Source of the DNA: Rhodococcus triatomae BKS 15-14
Lineage (GTDB): Bacteria; Actinomycetota; Actinomycetes; Mycobacteriales; Mycobacteriaceae
Length of the DNA stretch: 64,000 bases
NCBI GenBank assembly: GCA_000341795.1
Contig: AODO01000010.1
Location: 124,001-188,000, forward strand
Reading direction: 5' to 3'
Positions 6,206 through 37,740 of the stretch are shown piece by piece. A model generated the notes under the pieces. The model was not told the DNA's origin and ran no database searches. It saw only the letters and a list, made by a program, of their open reading frames with translations. The translations under genes were made by a program, and so were the position numbers. Each line of letters starts with the position of its first letter. Positions within the stretch are counted from its first letter, which is position 1.

Positions 6206-6221
6206 CAGGAAGGACGATCCG

Positions 6222-8263: not shown

Positions 8264-8268
8264 CCGGT

Positions 8269-8295: not shown

Positions 8296-8316
8296 GGACC
8301 GGGGTATCCGGGTGGC

Positions 8317-9414: not shown

Positions 9415-9626
9415 CACGTCACGTCGGCGGGTCCGCGGCGCGGGCTCGGGCCGCGGACCTGCGCTTGTCGCCCGGAACGCGATCGATTCCGCCGTCGGGA
9501 CCGGAAGTGGTCTAGGCTGGGAAGTGGTTGAGAGCACAGCCGAGGCATTTCCAGCCGGTCCTCCGTGATACTCGGCCCTCGTGCGCGGCGATTCCGGTTC
9601 CTTCATTCTTGAACGGAGCGTGCGCC

Positions 9627-10103: not shown

Positions 10104-13100
10104 TCAGTGGTCGACCAGGTACCGGTCGAGGACCGGCCCGACGACCGCGAGCACCTCCGGTTCGATCATCTGGTTGTGCTCGCAGTCGACGGCGATCTCG
10201 CGGATGCCGCCGGTGACGTTGCCGCGCCATTCCTGCGGCGTGTGGTGACCGTTGGCGCGGGTCGCCCGGAAGAACAGCATGTCGCCGTCGAACACGTCCG
10301 GGGTGAACTCGCGGAGGATCCGGGCGGAGTCGGTGAACCCGGCGTTGATGCGCCGCAGGTGCTCGGCGGTGAGCCCGGTGTCCTGACCGAAGGACTCGTC
10401 GAGCAGTTCCACCGCCCGCTCGTAGGTCAGTGAATCCTCCTCCGCGGCAGGCAATTCCAGTCCGAGTCCGTGGAGCAGCTCCCCCACGGTGAGACTGTCC
10501 GGGGTGTCGTCGTCGACACCGAGGTAGCTGTCCATGACCGCGAGGGTTTCGACCACCTCACCGCGGTCGCGCAGTTCGACGGCGATCGCGTGCGCGATGA
10601 CGCCGCCCAGCGACCAGCCCAGCAGGTGGTACGGCCCGTGCGGCCGGACCGCGACGATCTCCTGCACGTACCGGTGCGCGAGGTCCGCGACGGAGGTGAA
10701 ACTCGGTCCGCCGCTGATCACCGGCAACTGCAGCCCGTACGCGGGACGGTCCTGGGACAGGTGCTGGGCCAGTCCGGCGTAGCCCCACGACAGCCCGATG
10801 CCCGGGTGCACGCAGAACAGGGGTGCCTTGCTGCCCTGCGTGCGCAGCGGGATGAGCACGCTGAGCGCCCGGTCCACCGGCGCGGCGCCACCCGGTTCCG
10901 TCAACGCGAGTGCCAGCCCGCGCGGGGTCGGATCGAGGAACACCGCCTGCAGCGGCAACGTGCGGCCCAGCCGCGACGCCAGCGCCGTCACGAGCCGCGT
11001 CGCGACGATGGAGTTGCCGCCGAGATCGAAGAAGCTGTCCATGACACCGACCCGGTCGACCTCGAGGACCTCCTCGAACACCGCCACGACGGCGTGCTCG
11101 GTGGGATTGCTCGGCGGCTGGTACAGATCGGAGCGGGACCCGAACTGCGGCGCGGGCAGCGCGCGCCGGTCGAGCTTGCCGACCGGCGTCATCGGGGCCT
11201 TGTCGAGAATCGTGACGGCGGCGGGCACCATGTGGGCGGGCAGGCGGGCGGCGACGTACGCGCGCAGCTCCCCCGGGTCGGGGGCGAGTCCCTCGGCTCC
11301 GACGACGTAGGCGGCGAGCAGGGTGCCGCCCGCGGGAGCTGTGTAGCCGATGGTCGCGGCGAACGAGACGGCCGGATGTCCGGCGAGGACCGTGTCGATC
11401 TCGCCGAGTTCGATACGGAACCCGCGCACCTTCACCTGGAAGTCGCTGCGTCCCACGTACTCCACCGTGAAGGTTCCGTCCGGGATACGGCGCCACCGCA
11501 CCACGTCACCGGTCCGGTACATGCGGGTGCCGGGTGCGCCGAACGGGTTCGCGACGAACCGGCCGGCGGTCAGGCCGGTGCGGTGGTGGTACCCGCGGGC
11601 CAGACCCGGGCCCGCGATGTACAGCTCGCCGGGCACCCCGACCGGCACCGGCTGCAGCCTCCTGTCGAGGATCATCTCCTCGAAACCGATCGCGGGTCGG
11701 CCGATGTCGACGGGCCGGTCCGCGGCCATCGGGTCGCTGACGCTGGCCTGGATGGTGGTCTCGGTCGGGCCGTAGCCGTTGAACATGCGGCGACCGCGGG
11801 ACCAGACGGCGACCAGCTCGGGTGGGCACGCCTCACCGGCGACGGCGAGCACCGCCAGCTCGTCGAGTCCCTCGTCGGTCATCGACGACAGCGCGGTCGG
11901 GGTGATGAAGGCGTGGGTGACCCGCTCGCGCCGGAGCAGGTCGGTCAGCTCGCCGCCGCCGAACACGGTCGGTGGGACGATCACCACGCGGGCACCGGCA
12001 CCGAACGCCATCATCAGCTCGAACACCGACGCGTCGAAGCTCGGTGACGCGAGATGCGACACCCGGGAGGTGGGCGTCACCCGGAACCGGTCGTGTTCCT
12101 CGGCGGTGAGGTTCGCGATGCCCTGGTGGGTGATGATCACGCCCTTCGGCATACCCGTCGAACCGGAGGTGTAGATCAGGTAGGCCGGATGCTGCAGGTG
12201 CAGCGGCGCGCGCCGGTCGGCGTCGGTGATCGGTGCCGCGGACCGGGATTCGAGGTCGCGTCGCGTCTCGTCGTCGAGGACGAGCCAGGGTACGGCGGCG
12301 GGCAGGGCGTCCACCCGGTCGGGGACGGTGACACCCAGGACGGCGGCGGAATCCGCGAGCATGTACTCGATCCGTTCCGCCGGGTACGTCGGGTCGACGG
12401 GCACGAACCCGGCGCCGGCCTTCGCGACCGCCCAGATCGCGACGACCTCCTCGACGGAGCGGGACAGGCCGAGCGCCACGAACGTCTCCGGGCCGACACC
12501 GCGCGCGACGAGGGCCCGCGCCAACCGGTTCGATTCCTCGTCGAGGTCCCGGTAGCTGACCTGCCGGTCCTCGAAGCGCAGCGCGACGGCGTCCGGGTCG
12601 ACCTGCGCGGCGGCGGAGAGCAGGTCCGGCCACAACTCCGGGGTGCGGGAGCTGCCTCCCTGGGCGGGCGCGAACTGGGTGAGTTCGGTGGCGCCGAGGA
12701 TGCCGATGTCGCCGACGGCGCGGTCCGGGTCGGCGGTGACGGCGCGCAGGATCCGCACGAACCGGTCGGCGAGGCCGCGCACCGTGCCCGGATCGAACAG
12801 GTCGGTGGCGAAGTCGAGTGCCGCGGTCATTCCGGCCGGGGTGCCGTCGTCGTCGAACCGTTCGGCGAGGATCAGCTCGAGGTCCTCCTTCGCGACGTGC
12901 GTGGAGATGTCGACGGCGGCCGCGGTCAGGCCCGGCAGCTCCAGGTGCGGGGTCTGCGTGTTCTGGAATTCGAGGGACACCTGGAACAGCGGCGAGTAGG
13001 CGGTCGACCGCGGCGGGTTGAGCTTCTCGACGAGCAGTTCGAACGGCAGGTCCGCGTGCGCGAACGCGTCGAGGTCGCGGTCGCGGACCTCGCCGAGCAG

Positions 13101-14049
13101 TGCGGTGAAGGACACGGCGGGGTCGATTCGGGTGCGCAGGACGAGGGTGCCGACGAACATGCCGATCATCTCGTCGAGCGCGGGGTCGCCGCGACCGGCG
13201 ATCGGGGTGCCGATGGCGATGTCGTCGGTGTCGGCGATGCGGGCGAGCATCACCGCGTACGCGGCGTGCACGGCCATGAACACCGTCGACCCGGTCGCGT
13301 GGGCGAGATCGGTGACCGCGCGGTGCACCTCACCGGGCACCGCGAACTCGACCCGGTCGCCGCGCATCGTCTGCTGCAGTGGCCGCGGCCGGTCGGTGGG
13401 CAGGGTCAGGACGTCGGGCAGGCCGGCGAGGGTGTCCCGCCAGTACCGCCACTGCCTGCTGATCAGGGAGTGCTCGTCGGCGTCGGAGCCGAGGACGCGG
13501 TGCTGCCACAGGGTGTAGTCGGCGTACTGGACGGGCAGCGGAGCCCAGTGCGGCGGGTGGCCCTCCGTGCGGGCGAGGTAGGCGGCCATCACGTCGCGGG
13601 CGAGGGTGGCCAGGGAGAACCCGTCGGCGCTGATGTGGTGGACGACCACCACGAGCGCGTGCTCGTCGGCGCGCAGCGTGAACAGGGCGGCGCGGACGGG
13701 GACGGCGGCGCTGACGTCGAAGCCGGCGGCGGCGAACGCCGTGACCCGGTCCGTCAGCTCGGCCTCGGTGACGGCTTCCTCGGTGAACTCCGTCAGCGCG
13801 TCGGCGGTGTCGACGATGCGCTGGGTCGGCGATCCGTCGACCACCGGGAACATCGTGCGCAGCGACTCGTGCCGGTCGAGGACGTCGCCGACGGCGGCGT
13901 GCAGCGCGGGCATGTCGAGTGTGCCGGTGAGCCGGACCGCGAGCGGGATGTTGTACGCCGGGGAGGAGGTGTCGAACTGGTTGAGGAACCACATCCGTTG
14001 CTGGGCGAGGGAGATCGGGATGTGCCGGGGCCGGGGGCCGGCGGTGAGT
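10104..14049 (-). other. NRPS module 5 and release: C (L-to-L type) - A5 - PCP - TE
   Basis: The C domain has [10 protein letters not shown] and MWFLNQF, as in module 3. The A5 pocket reads D-A-F-I-A-A-G-I-Q-K, with no match I recognise. The PCP has [10 protein letters not shown]. The type-I thioesterase covers about 10104-10870 ([26 protein letters not shown] Asp, CEHNQM His), giving a complete Ser-Asp-His triad for release. Confidence 0.75.
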
Positions 14050-17000
14050 GCCGGTCGTGGCTCGCCGCCGTCGGCGGTGACGTGGTCGGCCTCGTCGAGG
14101 GCGCGGGCCAGGCTGCGCACCGTGGGCGACTCGAACAGTGCCCGCACACCGACGGTGACACCGAGGACGGCGCCGAGGCGGGCGGTGACGCGGGTCGCGA
14201 CGAGCGAGTTGCCGCCGACCTCGAAGAAGTCGTCGAGGACGCCGACCCGGTCCCGGCCGAGGACGTCGGCGAACACGTCGGCGACGATCCGTTCCCGGTC
14301 CGTCGCGGGTGCCTCGTAATCCGATGCGGCAAGGTCGAATCGGGGTTCGGGCAGGGCGCGGCGGTCGAGCTTCCCGACCGGGGTCAGCGGGATCTCGTCG
14401 AGGACGGTGATCGCGGCGGGCACCATGTGGCCGGGCAGGTGCCGGGCGAGGCCGGCGGTGAGGTCACCGGGATCGACCCGGTGCCCGGTGGCGGGCAGCA
14501 CGTAGGCGGCGATCGCGGTGTCGCCGGCGGGTCCGGGGACGGCGAGGGTGACGGCGAACCCGACGCCCGGCTGCGCCATCAGCGCCGCGTCGATCTCGCC
14601 GAGTTCGATGCGGAACCCGCGGATCTTGACCTGGAAGTCGGTGCGGCCCAGGTATTCGAGGGCGTACCCGGTCTCGTCGGAGCGCGTCCAGCGGACCAGG
14701 TCGCCGGTGCGGTACATCCGCTCCCCCGGCGCGTACGGGTTGCCCACGAATCGGCCGGCGGTGAACCCGGGCCGGGCGTGGTAGCCGCGGGCCAGCCCGA
14801 CACCGCAGATGTACAGCTCGCCGGGGGCACCGACGGGGACCGGTTGCAGGTGTTCGCCGAGGACGAGTTCCTGGACGCCGCGGATGGGGCCGCCGAGGGT
14901 GATGGGGCGGTCCGGTGACATCGGCGCGCTGATGTTCGTCATCACCGTCGTCTCGGTCGGCCCGTACGCGTTGTACAGGCGCCGCGCCCCGGGTGCGCCG
15001 GGATCCGGTGCCGCCCACCGGGTCACCAGGTCGGGCGGGCAGGCCTCGCCGCCGAACGCGACGTCGGTGAACGCGTCGAGGCCGGCGGGGTCGACGGTCG
15101 CGAGCGCGGCGGTGGTGACGAACGCGTGGGTGACGTGTTCGGACTTGACGAGCTGTGCGAGTTCGGTGCCGCCGTAGACGGTGGTCGGGGCGATCACCAT
15201 CGTCGCGCCCGCCCCGAACGCCTGCAGGTACTCGAACACGGCGCCGTCGAAGCTGGGTGTGGAGAAGTGCAGGGTCCGGGAACCGGGTGCGGCGCCGAAC
15301 CGGGCGAGCTGGTCGCGGGCGAAGTTGTCGAGTCCGGTGTGGGTGACGACGACCCCCTTCGGGGTGCCCGTCGACCCCGACGTGTAGACGAGGTAGGCGG
15401 CGTTGGTGAGGGCGATCGGTGCCGCCCGGTCGGCGTCGGTGACCGGGGCCGCGGACTCGCGCTCACACCGGTCGGCGAACGCGGGGTCGTCCAGGAGCAG
15501 CCACGGCACCGAGTCGGGCAACCGGTCGCGGTGACCGCTGGTGGTGAGCCCGACGGTGGCGCCGGAATCGGTCAGCATGTGGGCGATCCGGTCCGCCGGA
15601 TAGCTCGGGTCGACGGGGACGAAGGCGGCGCCCGTCTTGGCGATCGCCCACATGCACAGCACCGACGCCTCGGAGCGGACGATGCCGACCGCGACGAACG
15701 ATTCGGGTCCCGCGCCGAGCCCGATCAGGACCCGGGCGAGGCGACTGGACCGTTCGTCGAGTTCGCGGTAGCTGACGTCGCCGCCGGCGGACGTCAGCGC
15801 GATCGCGTCGGGGTCGAGGGCGGCGCCGTCGGCGAGGACCTCGGGCAGCGTCCGGGTCGAGTGGCCGGCCGGGCCGGTGACGGGCAGCAGGTCGGTGGCC
15901 TCGTCGTCGCGCAGGGCGTGTGTGTGGGCGATGCGGGTGTCGGGGGCGTCGGCGAACAGCCGCAGCATCCGCTGCACCCGGTCGGCGACGACCGCCACCT
16001 CGCCGCGCCCGAACGCCTCCGAGTACTCGAACTTCAGGTTCAGTGCGCCGGCGTCGGAGGCGACCAGCGCGAGCGGGTAGTGCGCGGAGTCGCGGCCGTG
16101 GACGTCGGTGACGCGCATGCCGGCGATGTCGGTCTCGGCGGTGAGCCCGGCCCGGTCGACGGGATAGGACTCGAACACCGTCAGGGTGTCGAACACGGAG
16201 CCGGGACCGGCGGCCTGCTGGATCGCGGGCAGCCCCAGCAGGTGGTGGTCGAGCAGCGCGGCCTGTTCCGCCTGCAGCCGGTCCAGGAGCCCGCCGAGGG
16301 TCTCGGTGGGGTCGAGGACCACCCGGACGGGGATGGTGGTGATGAACAGTCCGACCATCGACTCGATCCCCGGGATCTGCGGAGGCCGGCCCGACACGGT
16401 GGCACCGAAGACGACGTCGTTGCGGCCGGTGAGCGCGCCGAGGACGAACGCCCATGCCGCCTGCACGACGGTGTTCACGGTCAGCCCGCGGGACCGGGCG
16501 AGCGCCCGCACCCGCTCGGCGGTGTCGTCGGGCAGCGTCGTCTCGTACTCGCGGGATCCGCCCGGCGCGGGCTGTCCGGGCGCGCTCGGCGCGAGCAGCG
16601 TCGGTTCGCCGGCGTCGGCGAACAGGTCCCGCCACACCGCGGTGGACGCGGCCGGGTCCTGCCCGGCGAGCCAGGCCAGGTAGTCCCGGTACGGCCGCAC
16701 CCGCGGCAGCACGCGACGATCCCCGTCGGTGGCGTACAGGGTGAGCAGGTCCCGCAGGATCAGCGGCGTCGACCAGCCGTCGAGGAGGATGTGGTGGTTG
16801 GTGAGCACCAGCCGGTGCTCACCGGGGCCCATCGTGACCAGCTGCATCCGCAGCAGCGGCGGCGCGGTCATGTCGAATCCGGCGCCGCGGTCGGCGTCGA
16901 GCAACACGGTGAACCGGGTCTCGGCGGTGGCGGGGTCGGCGCCGCTCAGATCGGCGACCGTCCACGGCACCTCGGCGCGCGCGGGGATCACCTGCGCGGC

Positions 17001-20000
17001 GTGGCCGGCGTCGTCGACGACGAACCCGGCCCGCAGGTTCGGATGCCGGTCCACCAGCGCCTGCCCGGCGCGGCGCAGCCGGTCCGCGTCGACGTCACCG
17101 CGCAGGTCCAGCGTCAGCTGCACGACGTACGGGTCGGTCGCGTCCTCCGACAGCCGGGACTGGAACAGCAACCCCGCCTGCAGCGGCCCCAGCGGCCACA
17201 CGTCCGCCAGTCCCGGGAAGCGCAGCTCCAGGTCGTCGATGGCGTCCTGATCGAGGTCCACCAGATCGAGGTCGGACGGGGTGAGTCCCCCGGCCGCCGG
17301 GTCGGTGGCGTGCCGGGCGACGGCGGTCAGCGCCTGCACCCACAGCTCCGCGAGCAGGGTGACCTCCTCCGCGGACAGCACACCGGTCGGGAAGTCCCAC
17401 GTGGCGCGCAACCGGGGACCGTCCGACCCGCCGAGGGTGACCGCGTTCACGTCGAGGACGGCGGTGACCGGCAGGTCCGGTGGCGGCGCGTCGTCGAGGG
17501 CGACGTCGGTGACGGGCATCCAGGTCGCGTCCGCGTCGTCGGCGCCGCCGGTGAGCCGACCCAGGTAGTTGAAGCTGACCTGCGGATCGGGGGTGTCGCC
17601 GAGCGGCGCGTCACCGGTCGCCGGGTACCGCAGCAACCCGAAACCGATGCCGTGGTCCGGGGCGGCGAGGACCTGTTCCTTGACGGCCTTGATCGCGGCG
17701 CCGGCGGCGGGGCCCGCGTCGAACGCCTCGTCGACGTCGATGCCGGTGAGATCGAGGCGGACCGGATGCATCGTGGTGAACCAGCCGACGGTTCGGGACA
17801 GGTCGACACTGCCCGACCCGGCCCGCTCGACGACCGCGGGTTCGCGGCCGTGCCCCTCGACGGTGACCAGGGTGTCGGTGTGCGCCTGCCCGCGGTCGGC
17901 GCGCCACCGGGTCACGGCCAGGGCCAGCGCGGTGAGCAGACCGTCGCCGACACCGCCGTGGAACGCGTCGGGGACCGCGGTCAGCAGCGCCTCGGTGACC
18001 TCCGGTGGCACCTCGACGCGGACACGGTCCAGTGTGCCGGCGACGTCGACGGCCGGATCGAGGCGGCGGGCCCCGATCGCCGGGTCGGGTGCGGCGAGAA
18101 CACCACGCCAGTGGTCGATCTCGTCGGTGCGGTCCGCGGCGGCGAGGGCGTGCGCCCACCGTCGCATCGAGGTGCCCACCGGCGGCAGGTCGACGGGGCG
18201 ATCCTCGCCGAGTTGTGCCCACGCGATCGCCAGGTCGGGCACGAGGATCCGCCACGACACGCCGTCGACGGCGAGGTGGTGCACGACCAGCAGGAGTCGG
18301 CCCGCGCCGGTGGGCGGGTCGAACCGGACGGCCTGCAGCAGCACCCCGGCTTCGGGATCGAGTCGGCCCGCGGCGTCGGCGAGCGCGGTGTCGGCGACCG
18401 CCTCGAACCGTGGGCCGGTGACGGTGTCGACGGGCACCCGCGTCAGCAGGGACGCCGCGTCGACGGTGCCGGGCGCGGTGACCGTGACCGTCCGGTTGGT
18501 GCGGTCGAGGCGGGCGCGCAGCATGTCGTGCCGGTCGACGACCGCGCCGAGGGCGGCGGCGAGTCGGTCGTCGGTGGCGACGACGGGGAGAGTGAGCAAC
18601 GCGGTCTGCGTGTACCGGGCCAGGCCCGCCGCGCCTGCGTCGGCGCGGTCGAGGAGCCACCGGACGATCGGGGTGACGGGGAACGATCCGACACCGCCGC
18701 CGGGCAGTTCGTCGAGGACCGGCACCGCCGTGTCCGCGGATTCGGCGACCGCGGCCAGCGCGGCGACCGTCTTGTGCTCGAACACCTGCCGCGGCGTCAG
18801 GTGCAGTCCGCCGTCCTTCGCGCGGGCGACGAGCTGGATGGACATGATGCTGTCGCCGCCGAGCGCGAAGAACGAGTCGTCGACACCGACCCGGTCCAGG
18901 CCGAGGACCTCGGCGAACAGGGCGCCGAGGGTCGACTCGGTTTCGGTGGCCGGTTCGCGTCCCGCGCCCGCGGCGGCCCCGAAGTCCGGCTCCGGCAACG
19001 CCTTCCGGTCCAGCTTGCCGTTGACGGTCAGCGGCAGCGCATCGAGCTCGATCAGTGCGGCGGGCACCATGTGCGCCGCGAGTTCCCCGGCGAGGAACTC
19101 GCGCAGACCGTCGCGGTCGAGGACCGTGCCGGGCTCGGCCACCAGGTACTCGACCAGCCGGACGCGACCGGCGCCGTCGTCGTGGGCGACGGCGACGGCG
19201 GCGGAGACGCCGGGGAATCGCAGTGCGGCCGACTCGATCTCGCCGAGCTCGATGCGGAAACCTCGGATCTTGACCTGCAGGTCGCTGCGACCGAGGTACT
19301 CGAGGCGGCCGCTGCGGTTCCACCGGGCGAGGTCACCGGTGCGGTACATCCGCTGCCCCGGACCGCCGGACGGGTCCGCGACGAAGCGGGCCGCGGTCAG
19401 GTCGGGGCGACCGAGGTAGCCGCGGGTGACCTGGTCGCCGGAGACGTACATCTCCCCCACCACGCCGGGCGGTACCGGCCGCAGCCGTCGGTCGAGGACG
19501 CTGACCCGCAGCGCCGGCACCGCGCGCCCGACGACACTCGCCGACGAGGACGACGCGAGGTCCGCGGTGAGCGGCAGCCGGGTGACGTGCACGGTCGTCT
19601 CGGTGATGCCGTACATGTTCACCAGTTCGGGTGCGGCCCCGCCGACATACCCGGCCGCCGCGCTCGCCCCGGTCACATACCCCGTCGCTGCGCTCGCCCC
19701 GCCGTGCCGCTCGTACCAGCGCCGCAGCTGCGCGAAGTCCAGCGCTTCGCCACCGAAGATCACGTACCGCAGCGCGGTGAGCAGTTCGGGGCCCTCCGTC
19801 GCCGAGGAGAGGGCCGCGCGTTCCGCCTCCGCGAGCTGGTAGAACGCGGTCGGCGTCTGGTTGAGGACGGTGACGTGCTCGCGTTCGAGGAGGTCGAGGA
19901 ACAGCTCCGGTGACCGGGACGTGTCGTGATCGACGACAACGAGACGCCCGCCGTGAAGCAGCGGACCCCACAGCTCCCAGACGGAGAAGTCGAACGCCGC

Positions 20001-23000
20001 CGAATGGAACATCGTCCACACGTCGGTCCCGTCGAATCCGAAGGTGTCGCGGGTGTTCTCGAACAGGGTGAGCACGTTGCGGTGCGGCACCAGCACACCC
20101 TTGGGGCGGCCGGTGGACCCGGATGTGTAGATGACGTACGCGATCGTCTCCGGGGTGAGGGACGCGCGGCGGTCGAGATCGGTGAGCGGCTGGTCCGAGG
20201 CGTCCCGCAGCGCGGCGGTCACGGCCGGATCGTCGAGCGCGACGACGGGCACCGCGGAGGCGGGGAGCCGGTCGGCGTCGAGAACGGTCGTCACCGTGCA
20301 CACCGGTGCGGCGTCGGCGAGGGTGAACGCGTGCCGCTCCGCCGGATGACCGATGTCGAGGGGCAGGTAGCCGGCACCGGATTCGACGACGGCGAGGAGC
20401 GCGACGACGAGGTCCACACCCCGCGGCAGAGCCACTGCGACGAGGGTTTCCGGTGTGGCGCCCGCATCGATCAGGACCCGCGCGAGACGGTTGGCGCGGG
20501 CGGCGATCTCGGCGTAGGTCAGGGTCACGTCCCCGCAGGTCACCGCGGGCGCGTCCGGGTGCCGCCGGACCGTGTCCGCGAACGCGGCGGCGAGGGTGGT
20601 GTCCGGGGCGCGGCGCCCGGGCGGGTTCCACTCCCCCGCCATCGCGTCGAGTTCGGCGGCGGTGCACAGGTCGACGTCACCGACGGGCCGGTCGGGATGC
20701 GCCTCGAGGTCGGTGAGCAGCCTGGTGAAGCGGTCTGTGATCGCGATCGCGGTGACCTCGTCGACGACGTCCGTCGCGTAGGTGAGGGTGCCGGTGATCC
20801 CGGCGGGTGCACCGTCGTCGCCGAACGTCTCGGCGAGCGTGAACTGCAGGTCGAACTTCGCCACCGGCAGGTCCGGTTCGACGGGGGCGACGGTCAGGCC
20901 CGGCAGCGCCAGTGTCGGCAGTTCGTTGTTCTGGAATTCGATGAGCACCTGGAACAGCGGGGTGTGGCTGGTGGAGCGGTCCGGGGCGATGGCGTCGACG
21001 AGCACCTCGAACGGCAGGTCGGTGTTCTCGAAGGCGGCGATGTCGCGGGCCCGCATGTCCCCGATCAGGTCCCGGAACGTCGACGCGGGCGGGACGGGGC
21101 TGTGCAGCACCAGGGTGCCGACGAACATTCCGACCATCTCGTCGAGCGCGGCGGCGCCGCGTCCGGCGACCGGGGTGCCGATCGCGAGGTCGTCGCTGCC
21201 GGAGATCTTCGACAGCAGCAACGCCAGCGCCGCGTGCATCGTCATGAACATCGTCGCGCCGCGGCTGCGTGACAGCTCGGCCAGCGCCCGGTGCGTGTCC
21301 GTGTCGACCCGCAACGGAACCCGGGCACCGACCATGTCCCGTCGGGTGGGCCGCGGGCGGTCGAGCGGAAGCTCCAGCACCTCGGGGAGGCCGGCGAGTT
21401 CCCGGGTCCAGAACGCGAGCTCGGCGGCGTGCCGCGACGACGGGTCGTCGGGGTCGCCGAGGAGGTCCCGCTGCCACAACGCGAAGTCGGCGAACTGCAC
21501 GGGCAGCGGGTCCCGGTCGTGCGGGTCGTGGCCCTCGATGCGGGACCGGTAGGCGGCCATCACGTCGCGGGCCAGTGGCGCCATCGAGAACCCGTCCGCG
21601 CAGATGTGGTGCACCACGATCGCGAGGACCGCGTCCCGGGGCCCGGTGACGAACAGTGCCACCCGGACCGGGACCTCGGCGGTGACGTCGAACCCGGCGC
21701 CGACGAAGTCGGCGAGCAGGGCGGGAAGGTCGGCGTCGGTGGCGCCCCGGACGTCCAGGTCGGTCGGATCCGGTTCGAGGACGACCTGCTCGGGTTCGCC
21801 GTCGTCGCCCATGGGATACACGGTGCGCAGCGACTCGTGCCGCGCCTGGACGTCCCGGAGTGCCGCGGACAGGGTCGCGACGTCGAGGTCGCCGGTGAGC
21901 CGGACGGCGAGCGGAATGTTGTAGGCCGGTGAGGTGGTGTCGAACTGGTTGAGGAACCACATCCGCTGCTGGGCCGGGGACAGGGGCAGGTGCGCGGGAC
22001 GCGGCTGCGCGACCAGCGGCGGGCGGGCACCGGACCCGGCGGTGGCGTCGGAGGCGAGGACCTCGGCGACGGCGCGGACGGTGCGCGCGTCGAACAGGGT
22101 CCGCACCCCGATCGTGGCGCCGCGCGTCGCGGTCAGGCGTGCCGCGGCACGGGTCGCGATCAGCGAGTTGCCGCCGAGGTCGAAGAAGTCGTCGTCCGCG
22201 CCGACCCGGTCCACGCCGAGAACGTCGGCGAACACGTCCGCGACCGTCTGCTCCAGCGGGGTCGACGGCGGAACGTACCGGGCCACGGCGAAATCGGGTT
22301 CGGGCAGGGCGCGGCGGTCGAGTTTGCCGACCGGGGTCAGGGGGATCCGGTCGAGGAAGGTGACCGATTCGGGGACCATGTGCGCGGGCAGCCGGCCGCG
22401 GACGAACTCGCGGACCTCGGACGCGGTCGGCGTGTGCCCGCCGGTGGTGACGTAGGCGGCCAGGTGGGTGTCGTCACCGACCTGGTGGGCGACGGTGACC
22501 GCGAAGGTGACGTCGGAGTGCGCGGCGACCGCGGAGTCGATCTCGCCGAGCTCGATGCGGAACCCGCGGATCTTCACCTGGAAGTCGCTGCGGCCCAGGT
22601 ATTCGAGGGTCGGGGTGTCGCCGTCGTCGAGGCGCCACCGCACCAGGTCGCCGGTGCGGTACATCCGCTCGCCCGGCGCGTACGGGTTCGCGACGAACCG
22701 GCCCGCGGTGAGTCCCGGACGGCCGTGGTAGCCGCGGGCCAGGCCGGGGCCGCACAGGTACAGCTCGCCGGGGGCGCCGGCGGGCACCGGCTGCAACCGC
22801 GACCCGAGGACCACCTGGTGGGCGCCGAGCACCGGGCCGCCGATCCCGACCGGTTCCCCGGCCCGCAGCGGCGCGCTGATGTCCGCCATGATCGTCGCCT
22901 CGGTCGGGCCGTAGCCGTTGAAGAAGCGCCTGGTCTCCGGTGCCGCGCCGACCCAGCGGGCGACCAGTTCCGGCGGGCACGCCTCCCCGCCGACCAGGAC

Positions 23001-26000
23001 GGCCGCGAACTCGTCGAGTCCGTCCGGGTCCACCGTCTCGAGTCCGGCGGTGGTGACGAAGGAATGGGTGACGTGTTCGGCGGCGATCAGGTCGGCGAGT
23101 TCGGTGCCGCCGTAGACGCCGGGCGGGGCGATCACCATCGTGGCACCCGGACCGAACGCGAGGAGGTAGTCGAGGACCGCCCCGTCGAAGCTGGGTGACG
23201 CGAAGTGCAGTGTGCGACTGCGGTCGTCGGCGCCCATCCGCTGCTGCAGTTCGTGGGTGAAGGCGTCGAGTCCGCGATGGGTGACCACGACACCCTTGGG
23301 GGTGCCGGTGGATCCGGAGGTGTAGATGACGTACGCGGCGTCGTCGACCCGCAACGGTGAACGCCGATCGGTGTCGGTGACGGCGGCGTCCGACACGGAG
23401 GCGAGCATCTCGGCGGTGTCCCGCCCGTCGAGGCACAGCCAGATCACGTCCTCCGGCAGCCGGGTCTCGGTGTCGGCGAGGGTGATCCCGAGCACCGCCC
23501 CGGAGTCGGTGAGCATGTGCGCGACCCGGTCGGGCGGGTAGTTCGGGTCCACCGGGACGAACGCGGCCCCGGTCTTGGCGACCGCCCACATCGCGGTCAC
23601 CGACTCGGCGGACCGGGCCAGGCACAGCGCGACCGCCGTGCCCGGTCCCGCGCCGCGTGCGATCAGGGCCCGCGCCAACCTGTTCGACGTCTCGTCGAGC
23701 TCCCCGTAGGTCACCGACCGCCGCGGCCCGGTCGGGTCGGGCTGGTGCCGCAACGCGATCGCCTCGGGCCGGGCGACCGCGGCGTCGGTGAGGATCTGCG
23801 GCAGGGTCCGGTGGGCGTCGGTGGGCCGGCCCCGGGCCGGTGTGAGAAGGGACTCCTCGCCGCCGGTGAGCAGGCGCAGCCGCGGCAGCGGCAGGTCGGG
23901 GTCGTCGACGAGGGTGCGCAGCACCCGCGCGACCTGACCGCCGAGGCGTTCGACGAGAGCGTGGTCGAACACGTCCGGGAAGTACTCGAGGTCGAGGGTC
24001 AGGTGCTCGTCGTCGGCGGCGATCAGGGCGAGGGGGTAGTGCGCGGCGTCGGCGGTGTCGTGGATGTCGAGCACGCGCATGCCCGCGATGTCGGTGTCCG
24101 CGGTCAACGCGTCGCGGTCGATCGGGTACGACTCGAACACCGTCAGCGAGTCGAACACGGCGCCCGGGCCGGCGACGTCGACGATGTCGGAGAGGCCGAC
24201 ATGGTGGTGGTCGAGCAGGGCGGCCTGCTCGGCCTGCAGGCGTTCGCCTGCCTCGACGAGGGTGTCGTTCGGATCGAGGGTCACCCGGACGGGCAGCGTG
24301 TTGATGAACAGGCCGACCATCGACTCGATCCCCGGGATCTGCGGGGGCCTGCCGGCTACGGTGCCACCGAAGACGATGTCGTCGCGTCCGGTCAGTTCGC
24401 CCAGGGTGATTCCCCAGGCGAGGCGGATCATCGTGGACAGGGTGATACCGCGGTCGCGGGCGAGCGCCCGCAGTCCCGCCGCGACCTCGGTGCCGAGGTC
24501 GACGCGCACCTGCCGGGACGGCTCCGCGGAGGCGCCGCCGTGATCGAGGAGCGTCGGGTCGGTGGCGCCGGCGAGCGCGTCGCGCCACGCGGTCAGCGAC
24601 TCCGCGCTGTCCCGGCCGGCCAGCCAGCTCAGGTAGTCGCGGTACGGCTGCACGCGCGGCAGGTCGGTGTCGTCGCCGCCGGTGGCGTACAGGGTCAACA
24701 GGTCTCGCAACACGAGCGGCATCGACCAGCCGTCGAGCAGGATGTGATGGTTGGTGAGCACGATGTGGTGCTCGTCCGCTGCCGTGCGGATCATCGTCAA
24801 CCGCAGCAGCGGTGCGGTGGCCATGTCGAACCCGCGGGCCCGGTCCTCGGTCATCAGCCCGTCCAGGGCCGCGGACCGGTCCTCGTCCGGGAGGCCGCTG
24901 AGATCGACCTCCGCCCAGGGGAGTTCGACGTGGCGGTGCACCACCTGCACGGGCCTGCCGGTGTCGTCGGGGACGAACGCGGCCCTCAGGTTGGGGTGCC
25001 GGTCCAGCAGGGCCTGCCCGGCGCGGCGCACCCGCTGCGGGTCGGCTCCGCGTGCCACGATCGTCAACTGCACCGTGTACGAGTCGACGGACCGCTTCCC
25101 CGGCACCACGCCCGAGGCGGCGGCCTGCGCGTGGTACAGCAGACCGGACTGCAGCGGCGTCAGCGGCCAGATGTCCTGCAGGCCCGGGTGCCGGGCCTCG
25201 ATGCGGTCGATCGCCGGCTGCCGCAGGTCCACGAGGTCGAGGTCGGACGGGGTCAGTCCGCCGGCGTCCGGACCCGCGACGTGCCGGGCCAGTGCGGCCA
25301 GCGCTGAGGTCCACAGTCCGGCGATCTCGGTCACCTCGGCGGCCGTCAGCACACCCGCCGGGAACGCCCAGGTGGCACGCAGCACGGGCCGCTCGCCGCG
25401 CATCGTGGTCACGGCGTTCACGTCGAGGGCGGAGGCCAGCGGCATGTCCCGGTCCTGGACGCGCTGCATGTCCACCTCGCCCGCGGGCGTCCAGTCCGCG
25501 TCGGCGCCGCCGGCGGCCAGGTCGGTCGCGAACCGGCCGAGGTAGTTGAAGGTGATCTGCGGTGCGGGATGCCCGGCGAGTTCGCGGCCCGCCTCGGGAT
25601 CCAGATAGCGCAGCAGTCCGTAGCCGACGCCGCTGTCGGGGATCGCCAGCAGCTGTTCCTTGACGGCCTTGATCGCGGCGCCGGCGGACCGTCCACCGGC
25701 GAACGCGTCGTCGAGGTCGATGTCGGGCAGGTGCAGCCGCAGCGGATGCAGCGAGGTGAACCAGCCGACGGTGCGGGACAGGTCCGCGCGTCCCCCGCGG
25801 GCGGTGCCCCCGGCATCCGTTGCGACGACGTGTTCCTCGCGGCCGTGGCCCTCGAGTCCGAGGAGAGTACCGCCGGAGGTGTCCTGTCCGTGGTCGTGAC
25901 GCCACCGCGTCACCGCGAGTGCCAGCGCCGCCAGCAGCCCGTCGGCGACGCTGCCGCGGTACGTCTCGGGCACCGCGGTCAGGACGGCGTCACTGATCTC

Positions 26001-29000
26001 GGCGGGCACCTCGACCGTCACCCGCTCGGCCGTGGACTCTGTGTCGACCGCCGGGTCCAGGGGACGGGACCCGATCACCGGGTCGGGTCCGGTGTGCACG
26101 GCCCGCCACAGGTCCAGTTCGTCGCGCCGCGATCCGGCGGCGTCGACCAGCGCGTGCGCCCACCGCCGCATCGACGTCCCCACCGGCGCGAGCGCGGGTT
26201 CCTGCCCGGCGGTCACGTGCGCCCACGCGATCGCCAGGTCCGGCACCAGCACCCGCCACGACACACCGTCGACCACGAGGTGGTGCACGACCACCATCAG
26301 CCGGTCCTCGCCGGTCGCCGAGTCCAGCCACACGACCTGCAGCATCACCCCGTTCACCGGGTCCAGGCGGTCCTGGGCGGCGTCGAGGACCGCGAGCGCC
26401 GCCGACTCGTACTCGGGGGTGCCGGGTGCCGATCGGACGGCGACGCGTCGCACGCAGGAGGCGGCGTCGACGGCGCCGACGGGTCGCACCTCCATCACCG
26501 GGCCCGTCGCCGGGTCGTCGATCCGCAGCCGCGCGCGCAGCATGTCGTGCCGGTCGAGTACCGCCTGCACGGTCGCCACCAGTGGGTCGAGGGAGGTCAG
26601 GTCGCGCGGGGCGCGCAGCAGCGTCGGCTGCGACATCCGGTCGAATCGGCCACCGGGGTGCTCGGGGCGGCCGCTGCGCTCGATCAGCCACCGCACGATC
26701 GGGGTGGGCGGCATGTCGCCGACACCGCCGCCGGGCAGTTCCTCCAACGTCGGCGCCGGTGCGTCCCCGGCCTCGGCGACGCCGGCGAGCGCGGCGATCG
26801 TCTTGTGCTCGAACACCTGCCGCGGGGTCAGCGCGAGCCCCGCGTCCTTGGCGCGGGCGACGAGCTGAATGGACATGATGCTGTCGCCGCCGAGTGCGAA
26901 GAACGAATCGTCCACACCGAAGTCGGCGACGTCGACGCCGAGCACCTCGGCGTACAGGCTCACCAGGGTGTCCTCGACGGGGCCGCTCGCCGCCCGGCGG
27001 GTGGCGGTGCGCGCGGTGAAGTCCGGCTCGGGCAGCGCGCGGCGGTCCAGCTTCCCGACCGGCGTCAGGGGCAGGTCGTCGAGGACGACCAGCGCGGACG
27101 GCACCATGTACGGGGCGAGTTGCGTGGCGGCGAAGGTGAGCAGTTCGTCGATGTCGACGTCGACACCGGCGGCCGGGGGGACCACGTACCCGACCAGGCG
27201 CGGTCGCCCGGCGTTGTCGGGGTGGGCGACGACGACGGCGCGCGCGACCGAGTCGTGCCGGGTCAGTGCCGACTCCACCTCGCCGAGCTCGATGCGGAAG
27301 CCTCGGATCTTGACCTGGAAGTCGCTGCGCCCCAGGTACTCCAGCTCCCCCGTCCCTCCGGTCGGGTCGCCCGTCCAGCGCACCAGGTCGCCGGTCCGGT
27401 ACATCCGGCCGCCGGTGAACGGATCCGCGACGAACCGCTCCGCCGTCGTCCCGGGCCGGTTCCGGTAGCCGCGGGCCACGCTCGGACCCGTCACGTACAG
27501 CTCCCCCACCACACCCACCGGCACCGGGTGCAGCCGTTCGTCGAGGACCAGCGATCCGCTGCCGGTGGACGGTCCGCCGATGGTGACCGGGCGGTCCGGC
27601 GTCAGGGGGGCGCTGATCCCGGCCACGACCGTCGTCTCGGTCGGCCCGTAGGCGTTGAACAGGTCCCGGCCCCCGCCCGCCCACTGCCGCACCAGCTCGG
27701 GCGGGCAGACGTCGCCGCCGGTGACGACGCACCGGAGATCGTCCAGTCCCGTCGCGTCGACCGATGCCAGCGCGGCCGGGGTGACGAAACCGTGCGTGAC
27801 CGTCCGCAGGATCGCGCGCAGTTCCTCGCCGCCGTACACGGTCGGTGGCGCGATCACCATCGTCGCGGCCGATCCCAGTGCGAGCAGCAACTCCAGGATG
27901 GACGCGTCGAAGCTCGGCGAGGAGAAGTGCAGGGTGCGGCTGTCCGCGGTCACGCCGAACCGGTCCCGCGCCTCCTGCATCAGGTTCGCCAGGCCTCGGT
28001 GACCGACGATCACCCCCTTGGGCAGACCCGTCGATCCGGAGGTGTAGATGAGGTAGGCGGCATCGTCGAGGCGGGCCCGCGGCGCGGGCACGCCGTCCCG
28101 GTCGACGGCGGGGGCGTCCCAGTCGACCTCGTCGACGTCGAACCAGTCGACCAGGTCCGGGACCTGCTCACGATGCGCACGGACGGTCAGCCCCAGCGTG
28201 GCGCCGGAGTCGCGCAGCATGTGCTCGATCCGGTCCGCCGGATAGTTCGGATCCACCGGCACGAACGCCGCACCGCATCGCACGACGGCCCACAGCGCGG
28301 TCACCGATTCGACGGACCGCGCGATCGACAGGGCCACGACGGTGCCGGGCCCGGCGCCGTGCCCGGCCAGGATCGCGGCCAGGACGTCGGCCCTGGCAGC
28401 GAGTTCTCGGTAGGTCAGGCTCCGATCGCCGTCGACGATCGCCGTCCGGTCCCCGCCGGCCGCGACGGCGTCCGCCACGATCTCCGCGAGGGTCCGCGGC
28501 TCGGGAGGCGGCGGCCCCCACACCGGGCACAGGGCGTCCGATTCGGCGGTGGACAGGACCGGGATGTCTCCGGTGGCGCGCGCCGGGTCGGCGACGACGG
28601 CGGCGAGGACGCGTTCGAGGCGAGCGACCACGGCCGCGACCGCTTCCGCCGCGAACACGTCGTTGGCCTCGTGCGCGATGAGGGCGGGAGTCGGGCCGGG
28701 ACGGTACTGGAGCACCAGATCGGCGTCGCGTGGATCGGTGTCCGGGGCGGTGACGGCGACGGCCGGTGCGGGAAGGTCGAGTGTCGCGGCGAGACGCGAG
28801 AGCGGTGTCGCGGCGTGCTCGGCGGCGCGGCGCACGGTGTCGGCGGTGCGGCGGACCTGCTCGGCGAAGGGGGTGGAGGGATCGAGACGTGAGCGGATGG
28901 GAAGCGGTTCGGGCGGGGTGGATGCGGTGGCACCGTCCGGTGGCTTGTCGGCGCCGTAGGGGGGCCCGGCCACGTCGGTGGCGACCGCGAGATCGTCCGC

Positions 29001-30689
29001 GCCGGTGAGCCGGCCGACGAGGACCGCGAGGGCGGTGTGCAGGATCGTGACGGCGTCCACCCCGAGGCGGGTGGCCAGGCCAGCAATCCCGTTCGTCACG
29101 GCCGTGTCGAGGACGAATTCGGTTGTGGTGTAGCCGGGTTGGCGTGCCTCGGGCCGGGCACCGGGCAGCGTGGGTGCGGCGGGCATCCCGGCGAGCTCGG
29201 CCTGCCAGTGGTCCAGGTCTGCGGCGGTCCGCAGTCGTCGGGCGCCGATCGCGGCGGATTCGGCGTGCACCGACTCGACACGGGTGTCCGGCGCAGCGGC
29301 GACGAACTCCTCGACGAGCGCGACGCAGCGCCGGTGGTGCTCGCGCAGGTCGTCCGCACCGTAGCGGTTCGGGTTGCCACGGAAGTCCACGAGTGTCTTT
29401 GCCGGGGAACCGCTCTGGTAGATGTTCACCAAGAGGTCCTGTACGGGACCGGAGGTGACGATGTGGTACTCGCCGACCACCGAGCCGAGGGTGATCTCCT
29501 GACGGAACAGCATCACGTTGACCATCGGCCCGGCCAGCCCCTGCCGGGCGCCGGTCAGTCCCGCGTCGCGGCGGATGTCCTCGATGCTGCACCGCTGGTG
29601 CCGCAGCGCGCCCATCAGCTCCAGTTGCACGCGCTGCACCAGCGATCCGACGGTGTCGTCGGCGTCGACGGTGATCTTCAGCGGCGCGACGTTGACGAGC
29701 ATGCCGCCGGAACGTTGCAGCGGCGCGGTGGTGCGGGCGGACACGGGCAGGTTCACCAGCACGTCGCGGCGACCGGTCATGCGCGAGAGATAGCAGGCGA
29801 AACCGGCGATGAGCACGGCTGCGGACGTGCCCCCGAACAGGTCGTCGGAGCCGGCGAGGCGATCCAGGGTGGTTTGGGAGAGGACGGCGCTCTCGAGCCT
29901 GCTGCGGGCAGCGACGGGACCCTCGCGTTCGGCGAGGGTGGACCCGGACTCGATGCCGCGGATGTGCTCGGCCCAGTATTCCCGATCCGCGACGAACCTG
30001 CTCGACTCGCGGTACTTGACGTCGAGGTCGTACACGCGCCGAAGATCCAGTGCCCGACTCGGTTCCGGCTCGACACCCTTCGCTGCCGCCGTGTACAGCG
30101 CGGCGATCCGGTTCACCATCGTCATGCCGCTGTAGCCGTCGAGCGCGACGTGATGAATTCGGGTGTACCACAGGTAGTCTCGATCCCCGACCTGGAGGAT
30201 GGTCATCTCCACCAGCCGGTCCCGGGTGATCCGGATCGGCGTGACGTAGTCGGTGTCGATCCAGGCGTGCGCGGCGGCCATCGGGTCGCGTTCACCCCGG
30301 AAGTCGAAGAACCCGATGCTGGTGTCGATGGACGGGTCCACGATCTGCCGCGGTTCGCCGTCGAGCTCGACCAGCGTGAGGAACGGCGACTGGAACTCGT
30401 GTGCCGCCGTCAGGGCGGCCTCCCGCAGCAGCGGAATGTCGATGTCGCCGTGCAACTCGACGTACTGCGCGATGAACGTCGGGACGGTCGGGTTGAGCTG
30501 CTGGGAGAACCACATCGTCCGCTGCACGGCGGACAGCGGGAACGATCCGGTCGCCGCCTGCGCGGCTCGGGACTCGGTGTCCTGCCTGCCCTCCGGGGGG
30601 CTGGTCGGTGTGGGGTCTGGTCGGCCTGGCTGTGGATCCCGCGTCTGTGAGGCGCCTCGGCTGGGATCTACAGAGGAAGAATCCTTCAT
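10104..30689 (-). CDS. Five-module nonribosomal peptide synthetase with starter C, two E domains and terminal thioesterase
   Basis: This single 6861-residue megasynthase has the order C-(half C)-A-PCP-E / C-A-PCP / C-A-PCP-E / C-A-PCP / C-A-PCP-TE. All C and E domains keep HHxxxDG (first pair His179-His180). PCP serines are 1270, 2842, 3947, 5495 and 6560 (LGGDS or [LV]GGNS). The thioesterase nucleophile is Ser6693 in GWSLGG. Each A domain has YTSGSTG...PKG and the C-terminal GKLDR(R/K)AL lysine. Expected product: an N-acylated pentapeptide, D at residues 1 and 3, released by hydrolysis or cyclisation. I start it at the ATG ending at 30689 because GTGAGG lies six bases upstream; a GTG four codons earlier lacks a site. 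No MbtH-like protein, acyl-ligase or exporter gene adjoins it in this window. Confidence 0.95.
14050..17289 (-). other. NRPS module 4: C (D-to-L type) - A4 - PCP
   Basis: The C domain ([23 protein letters not shown]) follows an E domain and matches that of module 2 closely. The A4 pocket reads D-G-F-V-A-G-A-V-M-K, related to A2 but not identical; the substrate is unassigned. The PCP serine is in [10 protein letters not shown]. Confidence 0.7.
17290..22029 (-). other. NRPS module 3: C (L-to-L type) - A3 (threonine) - PCP - E
   Basis: The A3 pocket reads D-F-W-N-I-G-M-V-H-K, the standard threonine code, supported by the Thr-typical [14 protein letters not shown] stretch. The PCP is the LGGDS type and the following E domain is intact ([15 protein letters not shown]), so a D-allo-threonine residue is predicted. 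A short Gly/Ala/Tyr-rich tandem duplication lies inside A3 just before its A5 motif (see the repeat at 19645-19704). Confidence 0.82.
19645..19704 (-). repeat. Two 30-base tandem copies inside the A3 domain
   Basis: Copies at 19645-19674 and 19675-19704 both contain ACATACCC...GCTCGCCCCG with a few differences. They encode the near-identical decapeptides [10 protein letters not shown] and [10 protein letters not shown] in the loop before the NMYGITE motif. The length keeps frame, so the synthetase stays intact. Confidence 0.85.
22030..25259 (-). other. NRPS module 2: C (D-to-L type) - A2 - PCP
   Basis: The C domain motif [10 protein letters not shown] and the [11 protein letters not shown] start are of the type found directly after E domains, which accept a D donor. 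The A2 pocket reads D-G-L-V-L-G-G-I-M-K. I do not recognise a matching substrate; a small or aliphatic residue is plausible. The PCP serine is in [10 protein letters not shown]. Module edges are approximate. Confidence 0.7.
25260..30689 (-). other. NRPS module 1: starter C - half C - A1 (Tyr-like pocket) - PCP - E
   Basis: The N-terminal C domain follows about 50 residues of Pro/Ser-rich leader with no preceding carrier protein, the position of lipo-initiation C domains. The A1 pocket, read by aligning A4-A5 motifs to the GrsA phenylalanine domain, is D-A-L-V-V-G-A-V-V-K. This is close to codes reported for tyrosine (for example DALVTGAVVK), so an aromatic residue such as Tyr or a para-substituted phenylalanine is likely. 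The PCP is the LGGDS type that precedes E domains, and the E domain ([21 protein letters not shown]) should give a D residue. Boundaries are approximate. Confidence 0.75.
28540..29222 (-). other. Orphan C-terminal half of a condensation domain between C1 and A1
   Basis: After the complete starter C domain, about 225 residues align with only the second lobe of the other C domains of this protein. Matching stretches are [20 protein letters not shown] (compare [20 protein letters not shown] in C5), [27 protein letters not shown], and [13 protein letters not shown]. It has no HHxxxDG and no first lobe, so it cannot catalyse condensation. A Pro/Thr-rich stretch replaces the conserved GMFVNTL region. 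It looks like a remnant of a C domain displaced by, or fused to, the starter C domain. Confidence 0.75.
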
Positions 30690-30860
30690 CGTAATCCTCA
30701 CGCAAGGGACTGTTACGGTGCGATCGCGGCGTGTCGTGAACTGTTCTCCCAGACTAGTGGCCGCTGTGCCCGCCGTCTCTGTAATTTGTCGGTCTGTGGC
30801 TTTGTCGAGACCCAGCGGTCGGACGTTACCGGGCGATCCGGCGGCCCGATTCTCTTACGG

Positions 30861-31843: not shown

Positions 31844-32620
31844 CTACCTGCCGACGAGGCCGCGCAGCTTCCGCCAGCGGTTCGCCATGCCCCAACCGAG
31901 GACCTTCGTGAACGCCTCGGTGATGATGTTGCCGGACATCTTCGACTCGCCGAACTCGCGTTCGGTGAAGGTGATCGGCACCTCGACCATGGTGAACCCG
32001 GCCTGCAGCGCCCGCCAGCCCATGTCGATCTGGAAGCAGTAGCCGGCGGATTCGATGGCCCCGAGGTCGAGTGTCTCGAGGACCACGCGCCGGTAGGCGC
32101 GGTAGCCGCCGGTGATGTCCTTGATCTTCACCCCGAGCGCGAGCTGGGAGTAGATGTTGCCGCCGCGGGAGAGGATCTCGCGGCGCCGCGGCCAGTTCAC
32201 GACACTGCCACCGGGCACGTAGCGGGATCCGGCGACGACGTCGGCGCCCTCGTCGATCTTGTCGAGCAGGCGATGCAGCTGCTCGGGTGCGTGGCTGCCG
32301 TCGGCGTCCATCTCGACGACCACCTGGTAGTCGCGTTCGAGTGCCCACTGGAAGCCGGCGATGTAGGCCGCGCCGAGTCCGTTCTTCTCGGTGCGGTGCA
32401 TCACGTGGATGCGTCCCTCGGTGTCGTCGGCGGCGAGCTTGTCGGCGATGTCGCCGGTGCCGTCGGGGCTGCCGTCGTCGGCGACGAGGACGTGCGCACC
32501 GGGCACGGCCGCGTGCAGCCGCCCGATGATCAGCGCAATGTTCTCGCTCTCGTTGTACGTCGGAATGATGACCAGCGTGCTGGAGCTCGGCTTGTCCCCG
32601 CTCGGCTTACCCGCGCTCAT
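31844..32620 (-). CDS. ppm1: Polyprenol monophosphomannose synthase (GT2)
   Basis: This 258-residue GT2 glycosyltransferase transfers mannose from GDP-mannose to polyprenyl phosphate, the donor for lipoglycan assembly and protein O-mannosylation. Motifs are [12 protein letters not shown], the nucleotide-binding DDGSPDGTG, the metal-binding DADGSH, and GSRYVPGG. It is the single-domain form without membrane segments; in M. tuberculosis the catalytic domain is fused to an Lnt-like domain. Here the lnt gene lies immediately upstream with a 4-base overlap, so the two act as a split version. It is the last gene of the fxsA-amidohydrolase-lnt-ppm1 operon. Confidence 0.93.
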
Positions 32621-34290
32621 TCGATCCTCTCCCCCAGCCGAGGCTGGTCCGTTCCGTGAACATCCGCACCGTCAGTTGAGGGCACGGCCGGCCGACGTCG
32701 CCGTGCTGCGGTCTGCAGGGCTGCGGCGATCACGGCCAGTGCGGCTGCGGCGGCCAGAGCGAACTCCGGAATCGAACCGAGCCGAGTAGCCAGCGTAATG
32801 GAGGTCCGAAGCGGAACCTGCGCCACCAGCGTGGTGGGCTCGAAAAGTGCGGACGAATCGGTCACAGTTCCGTCGGGTGCGACGATCGCGCTGACCCCCG
32901 ACGTGGCCGCGACGACCACCGCCCGCCCCTGCTCGACGGCCCGCAGGCGCGACATCGCGAGCTGCTGGTACGTCATCTCGGTGTCACCGAAGGTGGCGTT
33001 GTTCGTGGGCACGGCGATCAGTTCCGCGCCGGCGCGGACGGCCTCGGTGAGCGCCCGATCGAAAGCGACCTCGTAGCAGGTGGCGACACCGACCGGGATG
33101 CCGGCCGCGCGCACCACACCGTCGCCGGACCCGGGTGAGAAGTTGCCGGCCCGGTCGGCGTACTCGGAGAAGTGGCGGAAGAAGTCGCGGTACGGCAGGT
33201 ACTCGCCGAACGGCTGGATGATCTTCTTGTCGTGTTCGTCACCGGGTCCGCTGTCCGGATCCCAGACGACGACGGTGTTCGTCGTGCTGCCGTCGGCGCG
33301 CACCAGGACCGTCCCGACCAGGATCGGCGCGTCCACCGCCCGGGCCGCCGCGGTGATGGAGGCAGCGGCGTCGGCGTTGCGGAACGGGTCGATGTCGGAC
33401 GCGTTCTCCGGCCAGATGACCAGGTCGGGCTGCGGGACGGTGCCGGCGTCCACATCTGTCGCCAGCTCGAGGGTCTGCCGGACGTGGTTGTCGAGCACGG
33501 CGCGCCGCTGCGCGTTGAAGTCGAGGCCGAGTCGCGGCACCCCACCCTGGACGGCGGCGACGGTGACGGTGCCCGACTCGGCATCGGCCATGCCCGGGAC
33601 GGTCGGGGCGAGCGCGATCGCGACCAGCGGCAGCACCGCCGCCGTGGCGGCGGGCGCCAGCCAGCGCAGCACCGCCGCCGTGGCGGCGGGCGCCAGCCAG
33701 CGCAGCATCGGCCGACGGGTGTCGAGCACCGCGACCACCAGCGCGGCCAGCCCGGTACCGGTCAGCGCGACGGCGAAGCTGACGAGCGGCGCCCCGCCGA
33801 TGCTCGCGAGCGGAAGCAGCACTCCCTCGCTCTGACCGAAGGCGAGCCGACCCCAGGGGAATCCGCCGAACGGGACGGTCGAGCGGAGCCACTCCGTCAG
33901 CGACCACACGCACGCGATCCACAGCGGCGCGGCCCGGAACCGTGCCACCGCGACGGCGAGGAGCCCGAACAGACCGACGAACAGCGCCTCGACTCCGGAC
34001 AGCGCGAGCCACGGCACCGGACCGACGTACTCGCCGACCCACGGCAGCAGCGGCAGCAGGAACCCGAGCCCGGCGAGGAAGCCGTACCCGAACCCGGCGC
34101 GCAGGCGCCGCGGTCCGCGGCCCCGGTCGGTGAGCACCACAACCAGCAGCGCGATCCCGACCGGGGCGAGGAACCACAGCGGCCGGGGCGGGAAGCTCGC
34201 GAACAGCAGCAGACCCGCAACGATCGCGGCCACCGAGTTGCCCAGGACACGCAGTGCCCGCCCGCTGCGGGTGGCGGGGTCAGCGTTCAT
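32617..34290 (-). CDS. lnt: Apolipoprotein N-acyltransferase
   Basis: This 557-residue membrane enzyme N-acylates the lipoprotein N-terminal cysteine. About six transmembrane helices occupy residues 15-230. The nitrilase-like periplasmic domain follows with the triad in VIWPENASD (Glu), [15 protein letters not shown] (Lys) and VATCYEVAF (Cys), and a last helix near residue 520 anchors the C-terminus. The ATG at 34290 overlaps the amidohydrolase stop by 11 bases; a longer open frame to 34497 is a shadow. A perfect 36-base tandem repeat duplicates [12 protein letters not shown] in a membrane segment (see 33631-33702). In mycobacteria this protein interacts with or is fused to Ppm1. Confidence 0.93.
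33631..33702 (-). repeat. Perfect 36-base tandem duplication inside lnt
   Basis: Copies at 33631-33666 and 33667-33702 are identical and are followed by a partial third start (CAGCA). The repeat is in frame and duplicates 12 residues ([12 protein letters not shown]) in a membrane segment before the catalytic domain. Identity at the DNA level points to a recent slippage event, or to an assembly artefact. Confidence 0.95.
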
Positions 34291-35857: not shown

Positions 35858-35863
35858 GGGGCT

Positions 35864-36418: not shown

Positions 36419-36493
36419 GTCGGTCCTTTCGATCGGTGCTCTGCCCTGTCAACGACCGGGACGCCCGATTTTCTCCCGTACCCGCCGGGTGCG

Positions 36494-37705: not shown

Positions 37706-37740
37706 GGCGTCCATGGTCCCAGGCACGCCGAGGCACGGGC

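Follow-up and report, generated by a model that had tools for sequence, protein, structure and literature searches.

Why would a synthetase that opens with a complete starter condensation (C) domain carry half of another C domain before its first adenylation (A) domain? The question is raised by an NRPS gene in a 64,000-nucleotide stretch of Rhodococcus triatomae BKS 15-14, here called the window. An initial annotation had singled out about 225 residues at 28540-29222, between the starter C domain (CS) and the first A domain (A1), that align with the C-terminal lobe of the protein's other C domains but have no first lobe and no HHxxxDG. Two readings had been offered for this segment (the half-C): a structural platform, or a scar left when the starter domain was acquired. 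Its description of the segment is borne out. As to its origin and use, the half-C is probably the product of a fusion between a starter domain and an acceptor-lobe-A unit, in which the lobe has been retained as a non-catalytic platform for A1.

Based on Pfam and in-house profiles, the domain order of the NRPS is CS - half-C - A1 - T1 - E - C - A2 - T - C - A3 - T, continuing after the thiolation (T) domain of the third module with E - C - A4 - T - C - A5 - T - TE. Judged by its N-terminal starter C domain, the 6,865-aa protein is a putative lipopeptide synthetase. The features relevant here are as follows.

10104..30701, minus strand: NRPS gene, 6,865 aa, with five A-T modules, the first and third followed by E, and a C-terminal thioesterase
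29247..30560, minus strand: starter condensation domain CS, complete (residues 48-485), with HHVALDG at 183 and both floor and latch present
28542..29231, minus strand: half-C (residues 491-720), an orphan C-terminal (acceptor) lobe, probably LCL-like, without N-lobe and without HHxxxDG
28911..28970, minus strand: degenerated floor-loop region of the half-C (residues ~578-597, approximate boundaries), a low-confidence loop in both structural models
28719..28778, minus strand: shortened latch region of the half-C (residues ~642-661, approximate boundaries)
28482..28541, minus strand: C-A linker from the half-C to A1 (residues 721-740)
27012..28481, minus strand: adenylation domain A1 (residues 741-1230)
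26781..26969, minus strand: thiolation domain T1 (residues 1245-1307)

CS is related to RzmA-Cs (7c1h/7c1k, E about 5e-62), and acylation of the first residue is provisionally assigned to it by homology to RzmA-Cs only. Floor and latch are the crossovers defined in RzmA-Cs (PMC7804268); they were mapped via the CS alignment with a numbering offset of 3, anchored on the active-site histidine. The genes flanking the NRPS gene (window 667-10019 and 31844-38218) are of housekeeping type, with anthranilate/chorismate-binding, Ppx/GppA phosphatase and STAS genes on one side and glycosyltransferase 2, apolipoprotein N-acyltransferase, amidohydrolase, FxsA and GNAT/SCP2 genes on the other. Neither an acyl-CoA ligase nor a P450 was found among the ten scanned neighbors.

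The half-C is the second (acceptor-side) lobe of a C domain. Searched alone, the stretch 28540-29252 matched PF00668 with 53.4 bits (cut-off 30.6, E 2.3e-14), and the match covered positions 193-341 of the 456 in the profile, which belong to the second lobe only; a complete C domain was thus tested for and not found. Among the homologous half-C stretches, 40 of 42 also matched PF00668, and neither they nor the window's half-C matched any other Pfam family. Toward its end, where the match to the in-house C profile is weak (positions 405-447), the segment extends to the C-A linker. A profile built from the 42 half-Cs aligned over its full length with the second lobe in many C domains of known structure, the best being DhbF (5u89, E 2.7e-62), while starter RzmA-Cs reached 1e-18 and heterocyclization domains were likewise weaker than DhbF. 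HHxxxDG occurs at seven sites in the NRPS (residues 183, 1473, 1985, 3031, 4141, 4636 and 5688), none of them inside the half-C, and there is no N-lobe between CS and A1 in the window. A displaced N-lobe upstream of CS was also considered and rejected, as the 47 preceding residues hold none and CS lies near the start of the open frame in relatives too. Within PF00668, the half-C is accordingly homologous to the C-terminal lobe while lacking the N-lobe with HHxxxDG and the two-lobe catalytic tunnel, and in the window copy the floor and latch crossovers are degenerate or partly deleted. At 227 aa this copy is a shortened lobe; ~255 aa are kept in many relatives.

The lobe is likely LCL-like. Outside the floor and latch, half-Cs keep 68% of the residues conserved in LCL lobes, versus 29-35% in starter and DCL lobes. 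In a tree of C-lobes most half-Cs fall beside LCL domains; the likely rather than certain assignment reflects 17 half-Cs, including the window copy, that have long branches and drift to the starter side. Half-Cs are not resolved as a single clade in that tree, with its long branches, and their gain is therefore read from the CS tree described below.

When the window half-C is compared as a single sequence, the solved structure that matches it best is that of the teicoplanin X domain (4tx2, E 9e-9), and the X domain of glycopeptide synthetases is likewise a non-catalytic relative of C domains, with weak similarity in the second lobe. The half-C could then be a degenerate C fold serving as the docking site of a tailoring enzyme, for example a P450. 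This is very improbable, given that the 42-half-C profile ranks LCL-type lobes higher (DhbF E 2.7e-62 versus 8.8e-53), that the X domain is two-lobed, sits near the end of the assembly line and recruits P450s, while the half-C is a single lobe in the first module, that the window's contig carries no P450, and that overall sequence conservation is low.

To place the arrangement in evolution, the CS sequence was used as the query over 401 genomes of the family, the DNA after each fetched match was read, and the spacing between CS and A1 was measured at ~100 loci. Two classes emerged: a direct class with 27-48 aa between the domains (21 in the locus L133), and a half-C class with 215-294 aa. In the latter, comprising about 70 loci, the inserted segment matches C-domain positions ~177-447 only, and the match nearly always starts at ~177-192 of 449 and never earlier. 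The initial annotation had called for a survey of other NRPSs, and the arrangement does recur, at >70 homologous loci in about ten genera, which rules out a deletion introduced by assembly or sequencing.

A maximum-likelihood tree of 93 CS domains (65 clade rows plus 28 from outside) places the CS-(C-lobe)-A1 proteins in one clade with support of 100/100. The half-C is present in 64 of the 65 clade rows, while the 28 more distant CS domains all have the direct CS-A arrangement without it. The half-C was thus gained once and lost once in the sampled clade, which covers about ten genera of one family. An earlier CS tree without L133 had given zero losses, and one appeared after loci were added; because loci were sampled by similarity to the window CS, in a search that scored some candidates only, both losses and copies may be more numerous than counted. 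In samples of 299 genomes from the order and 396 from the phylum, nothing outside the family scored comparably, and a half-C scan of genome contigs returned only an ordinary C domain, from Streptantibioticus. Named relatives of CS include plasmid records from Rhodococcus and Nocardia.

The sole sampled clade member without a half-C is L133 (G031:C100:13914-15182), in which CS reaches A after 21 aa. Here the lobe was removed by a clean natural deletion, which restored a short CS-A linker. As its frame is apparently unharmed, the half-C would not be strictly required.

A lobe that can be lost raises the possibility that the half-C is an inert leftover of starter acquisition, drifting away and tolerated because in-frame deletions are rare. 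Several observations fit. Half-Cs diverge faster than their neighbors, with 34-38% identity to most of the genus versus 75-80% for CS; the lobe has been shortened in several lineages (gap 215-253 aa), with the lowest domain scores at 14-50 bits; and L133 supplies one clean loss. Using the crude Nei-Gojobori (NG86) method on 20 related pairs, the half-C omega exceeds that of CS in every pair, by up to about five-fold; in the pair formed by the window and its nearest relative, the half-C has 0.31, CS 0.06 and the start of A1 0.18. However, omega for the half-C ranges from 0.12 to 0.64 and is below 1 in all 20 pairs, W16, R81, R120 and R211 are invariant among 42 half-Cs, and only 1 of 65 clade rows has lost the lobe. 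These sequence patterns indicate that the half-C is maintained as protein under relaxed purifying selection, with weaker constraint than on its neighbors. An inert scar is therefore unlikely, the more so as its decay is clustered in the N-lobe crossovers rather than evenly spread and the lobe was replaced together with A1 in one locus (L082), as set out below.

The distribution of that decay was scored at positions conserved in ≥80% of full LCL lobes. Half-Cs keep 22% of such positions in the floor and 11% in the latch, compared with 68% elsewhere (Mann-Whitney p 4e-7). Starter and DCL lobes, which belong to catalytic domains and have their N-lobe, show nothing comparable, and for the floor the bias is reversed: 47-49% of floor positions are kept, 24-41% of latch positions and 29-35% elsewhere. 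Floor occupancy is 1.00 in the starter and DCL groups and 0.55 in half-Cs, while by latch occupancy alone half-Cs (0.69) cannot be told from starters (0.70). The half-C has thus lost the parts that contact its missing N-lobe.

The same pattern bears on whether the half-C is one part of a split C domain, pairing with an N-lobe elsewhere, either in trans or that of CS, to form a second active site. The one point in favor is that engineering can recombine N- and C-lobes (XUC; PMC11546977). In the half-C the would-be N-lobe contacts are exactly what decayed, no N-lobe lies upstream of CS, and the C-lobe of CS itself is complete, floor and latch included; a split domain is very improbable, the least likely of the readings considered.

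Whether lobe and A domain also move together can be seen in L082 (L126/L127, G070:C4:19400-49000), a 2,663-aa open frame with two modules and CS ahead of the first. Its half-C and A1 (residues 471-1250) are 80% identical over 780 aa to the C-lobe and A2 of module 2 (1531-2310), and the identity profile rises from 22% to 80% at the start of the lobe and drops to 38% past A. The lobe and A domain were copied between modules as one unit, by natural duplication or conversion. Relative to its counterpart in module 2, the copy in module 1 differs in floor residues and lacks 10 aa of the latch, changes that repeat the clade-wide decay on a short time scale. The copy is of interest because natural recombination, as surveyed in PMC8097286, consists mostly of A-core swaps.

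Joint transfer in L082 is also compatible with the lobe tuning the amino acid choice of A1 beyond merely seating it, a role suggested for C-lobes where C and A domains meet and proposed for the truncated C* of ThdA (PMC7253712, citing Meyer et al. 2016). Against such a selectivity gate, the natural-recombination survey reports A-core swaps without C and disputes C-A co-evolution (PMC8097286), and we consider it improbable.

AlphaFold2 modeling of CS-half-A1 with 62 sequences gave pLDDT 88 and pTM 0.70, with half-C blocks at 82-98 and the floor region at 57; at this pTM the placement of CS relative to the rest is not fixed by the prediction. The half-C was predicted to have a C-lobe fold, and no unrelated fold was found. 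A Foldseek search with the three-domain model matched CS to C domains and A1 to A domains at ~20 Å rmsd, which is uninformative for a platform, and the platform comparison rests on a model of half-C+A1 (pLDDT 88, pTM 0.82). This model superposes as one rigid body on the C-lobe and A-core of Txo1 (628 residues, 2.7 Å), and also on LgrA (622-636 residues, 2.9-3.6 Å), McyB (625 residues, 3.3 Å) and FmoA3 (about 612 residues, 3.6 Å), the superposition starting at the first half-C residues and extending through the whole A-core. The half-C and A1 are thus predicted to adopt the canonical lobe-A platform geometry, a fit partly expected for any recognizable lobe+A as AlphaFold2 was trained on C-A structures.

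Given the above, the arrangement likely arose when a complete CS was joined, once and in the ancestry of the clade, to an elongation unit at the inter-lobe boundary, giving CS-(C-lobe)-A-T. This fusion would have stranded the acceptor lobe of an ordinary LCL-like elongation C domain. As a two-lobe active-site tunnel cannot form, the half-C would be non-catalytic, and catalysis would fall to CS: T1, loaded with an amino acid by A1, would deliver it to the acceptor site of CS for acylation. The lobe most likely persisted because A1 is built to sit on it, with lobe, C-A linker and A core forming a rigid platform as in C-A modules. The half-C may hold and orient A1 and space CS from A1. That a segment without an active site is yet kept across ~10 genera makes a structural seat for A1 its most likely role; both the fusion event and this role in vivo are what we infer from the comparisons. 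Of the two readings first proposed, the scar stands as a fusion junction, in view of the fixed lobe boundary, the single gain and the L082 copy. In the sense of inert debris it is disfavored by retention in 64 of 65 rows, omega <1, loss confined to the crossovers that face the N-lobe and the canonical lobe-A fit. The structural platform is the better reading, with evolution and prediction pointing to it. We hold with moderate confidence the broader joint reading that CS + acceptor lobe + A is a natural heritable format, cut at the lobe boundary, with lobe and A exchanged as a unit, the lobe kept as an autonomous A-domain platform and the donor-lobe contacts worn away.

Truncated C domains at the start of a synthetase have precedents, and ACV synthetases reportedly also begin with a truncated C*. 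Such domains are described in the first modules of ThdA of thermoactinoamide (PMC7253712) and the fumiquinazoline fmq synthetase (PMC10212144). Like the half-C, C* is a partial, presumably inactive C domain of the first module, and in ThdA it directly precedes A. However, the ThdA C* is N-terminal, while the half-C follows a complete CS and hence is not the first domain of its synthetase. The half-C is also strictly a C-lobe and conserved in its clade; C* of ThdA and fmq is likened to it by description. A closer parallel is the XUC exchange unit, CAsub-A-PCP-CDsub (Bozhueyuek et al. 2019, described in PMC11546977), in which the cut also falls between the lobes and the A domain keeps its acceptor lobe. 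XUC is engineered, though, and rebuilds a full C domain from two half-domains, while the half-C clade sets a whole CS before the acceptor lobe and omits the donor lobe. We found no report of a starter C domain followed by a lone acceptor lobe and A in the literature covered, which included few subscription papers, and a word search of the text of a Rhodococcus NRPS survey (PMC5550956), which describes many starter C domains, found no truncated or half domain.

Joint evolution and joint transfer of C and A domains are disputed: the natural-recombination survey argues against them (PMC8097286), and engineering at the lobe boundary with XUC works. The half-C clade may serve as a natural data set for this question, comprising an ancient fusion, numerous retained lobes, a single loss and a single copy of lobe+A, and it isolates what a C-lobe may contribute to A without catalysis. 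These loci also illustrate a possible natural route for splicing NRPS assembly lines and suggest a testable rule for lipopeptide engineering, namely to place a complete starter C domain ahead of an acceptor-lobe-A-T unit. For annotation they are a warning, as half-C loci may be recorded as having two C domains in tandem or one that is broken.

In the direct starter C-A arrangement, known from RzmA/HolA-type synthetases (PMC7804268) and many Rhodococcus NRPSs (PMC5550956), the CS domain is homologous (7c1h/7c1k) and holds the same position in the line; within the family it is joined to A by a linker of 27-48 aa, while in the half-C clade a C-lobe is interposed. The genome of the window (G000) encodes three further CS-led NRPSs, all of this direct type (contigs C55 and C14; L137, L141 and L143), with open frames of 6,248, 14,589 and 9,876 aa, respectively.
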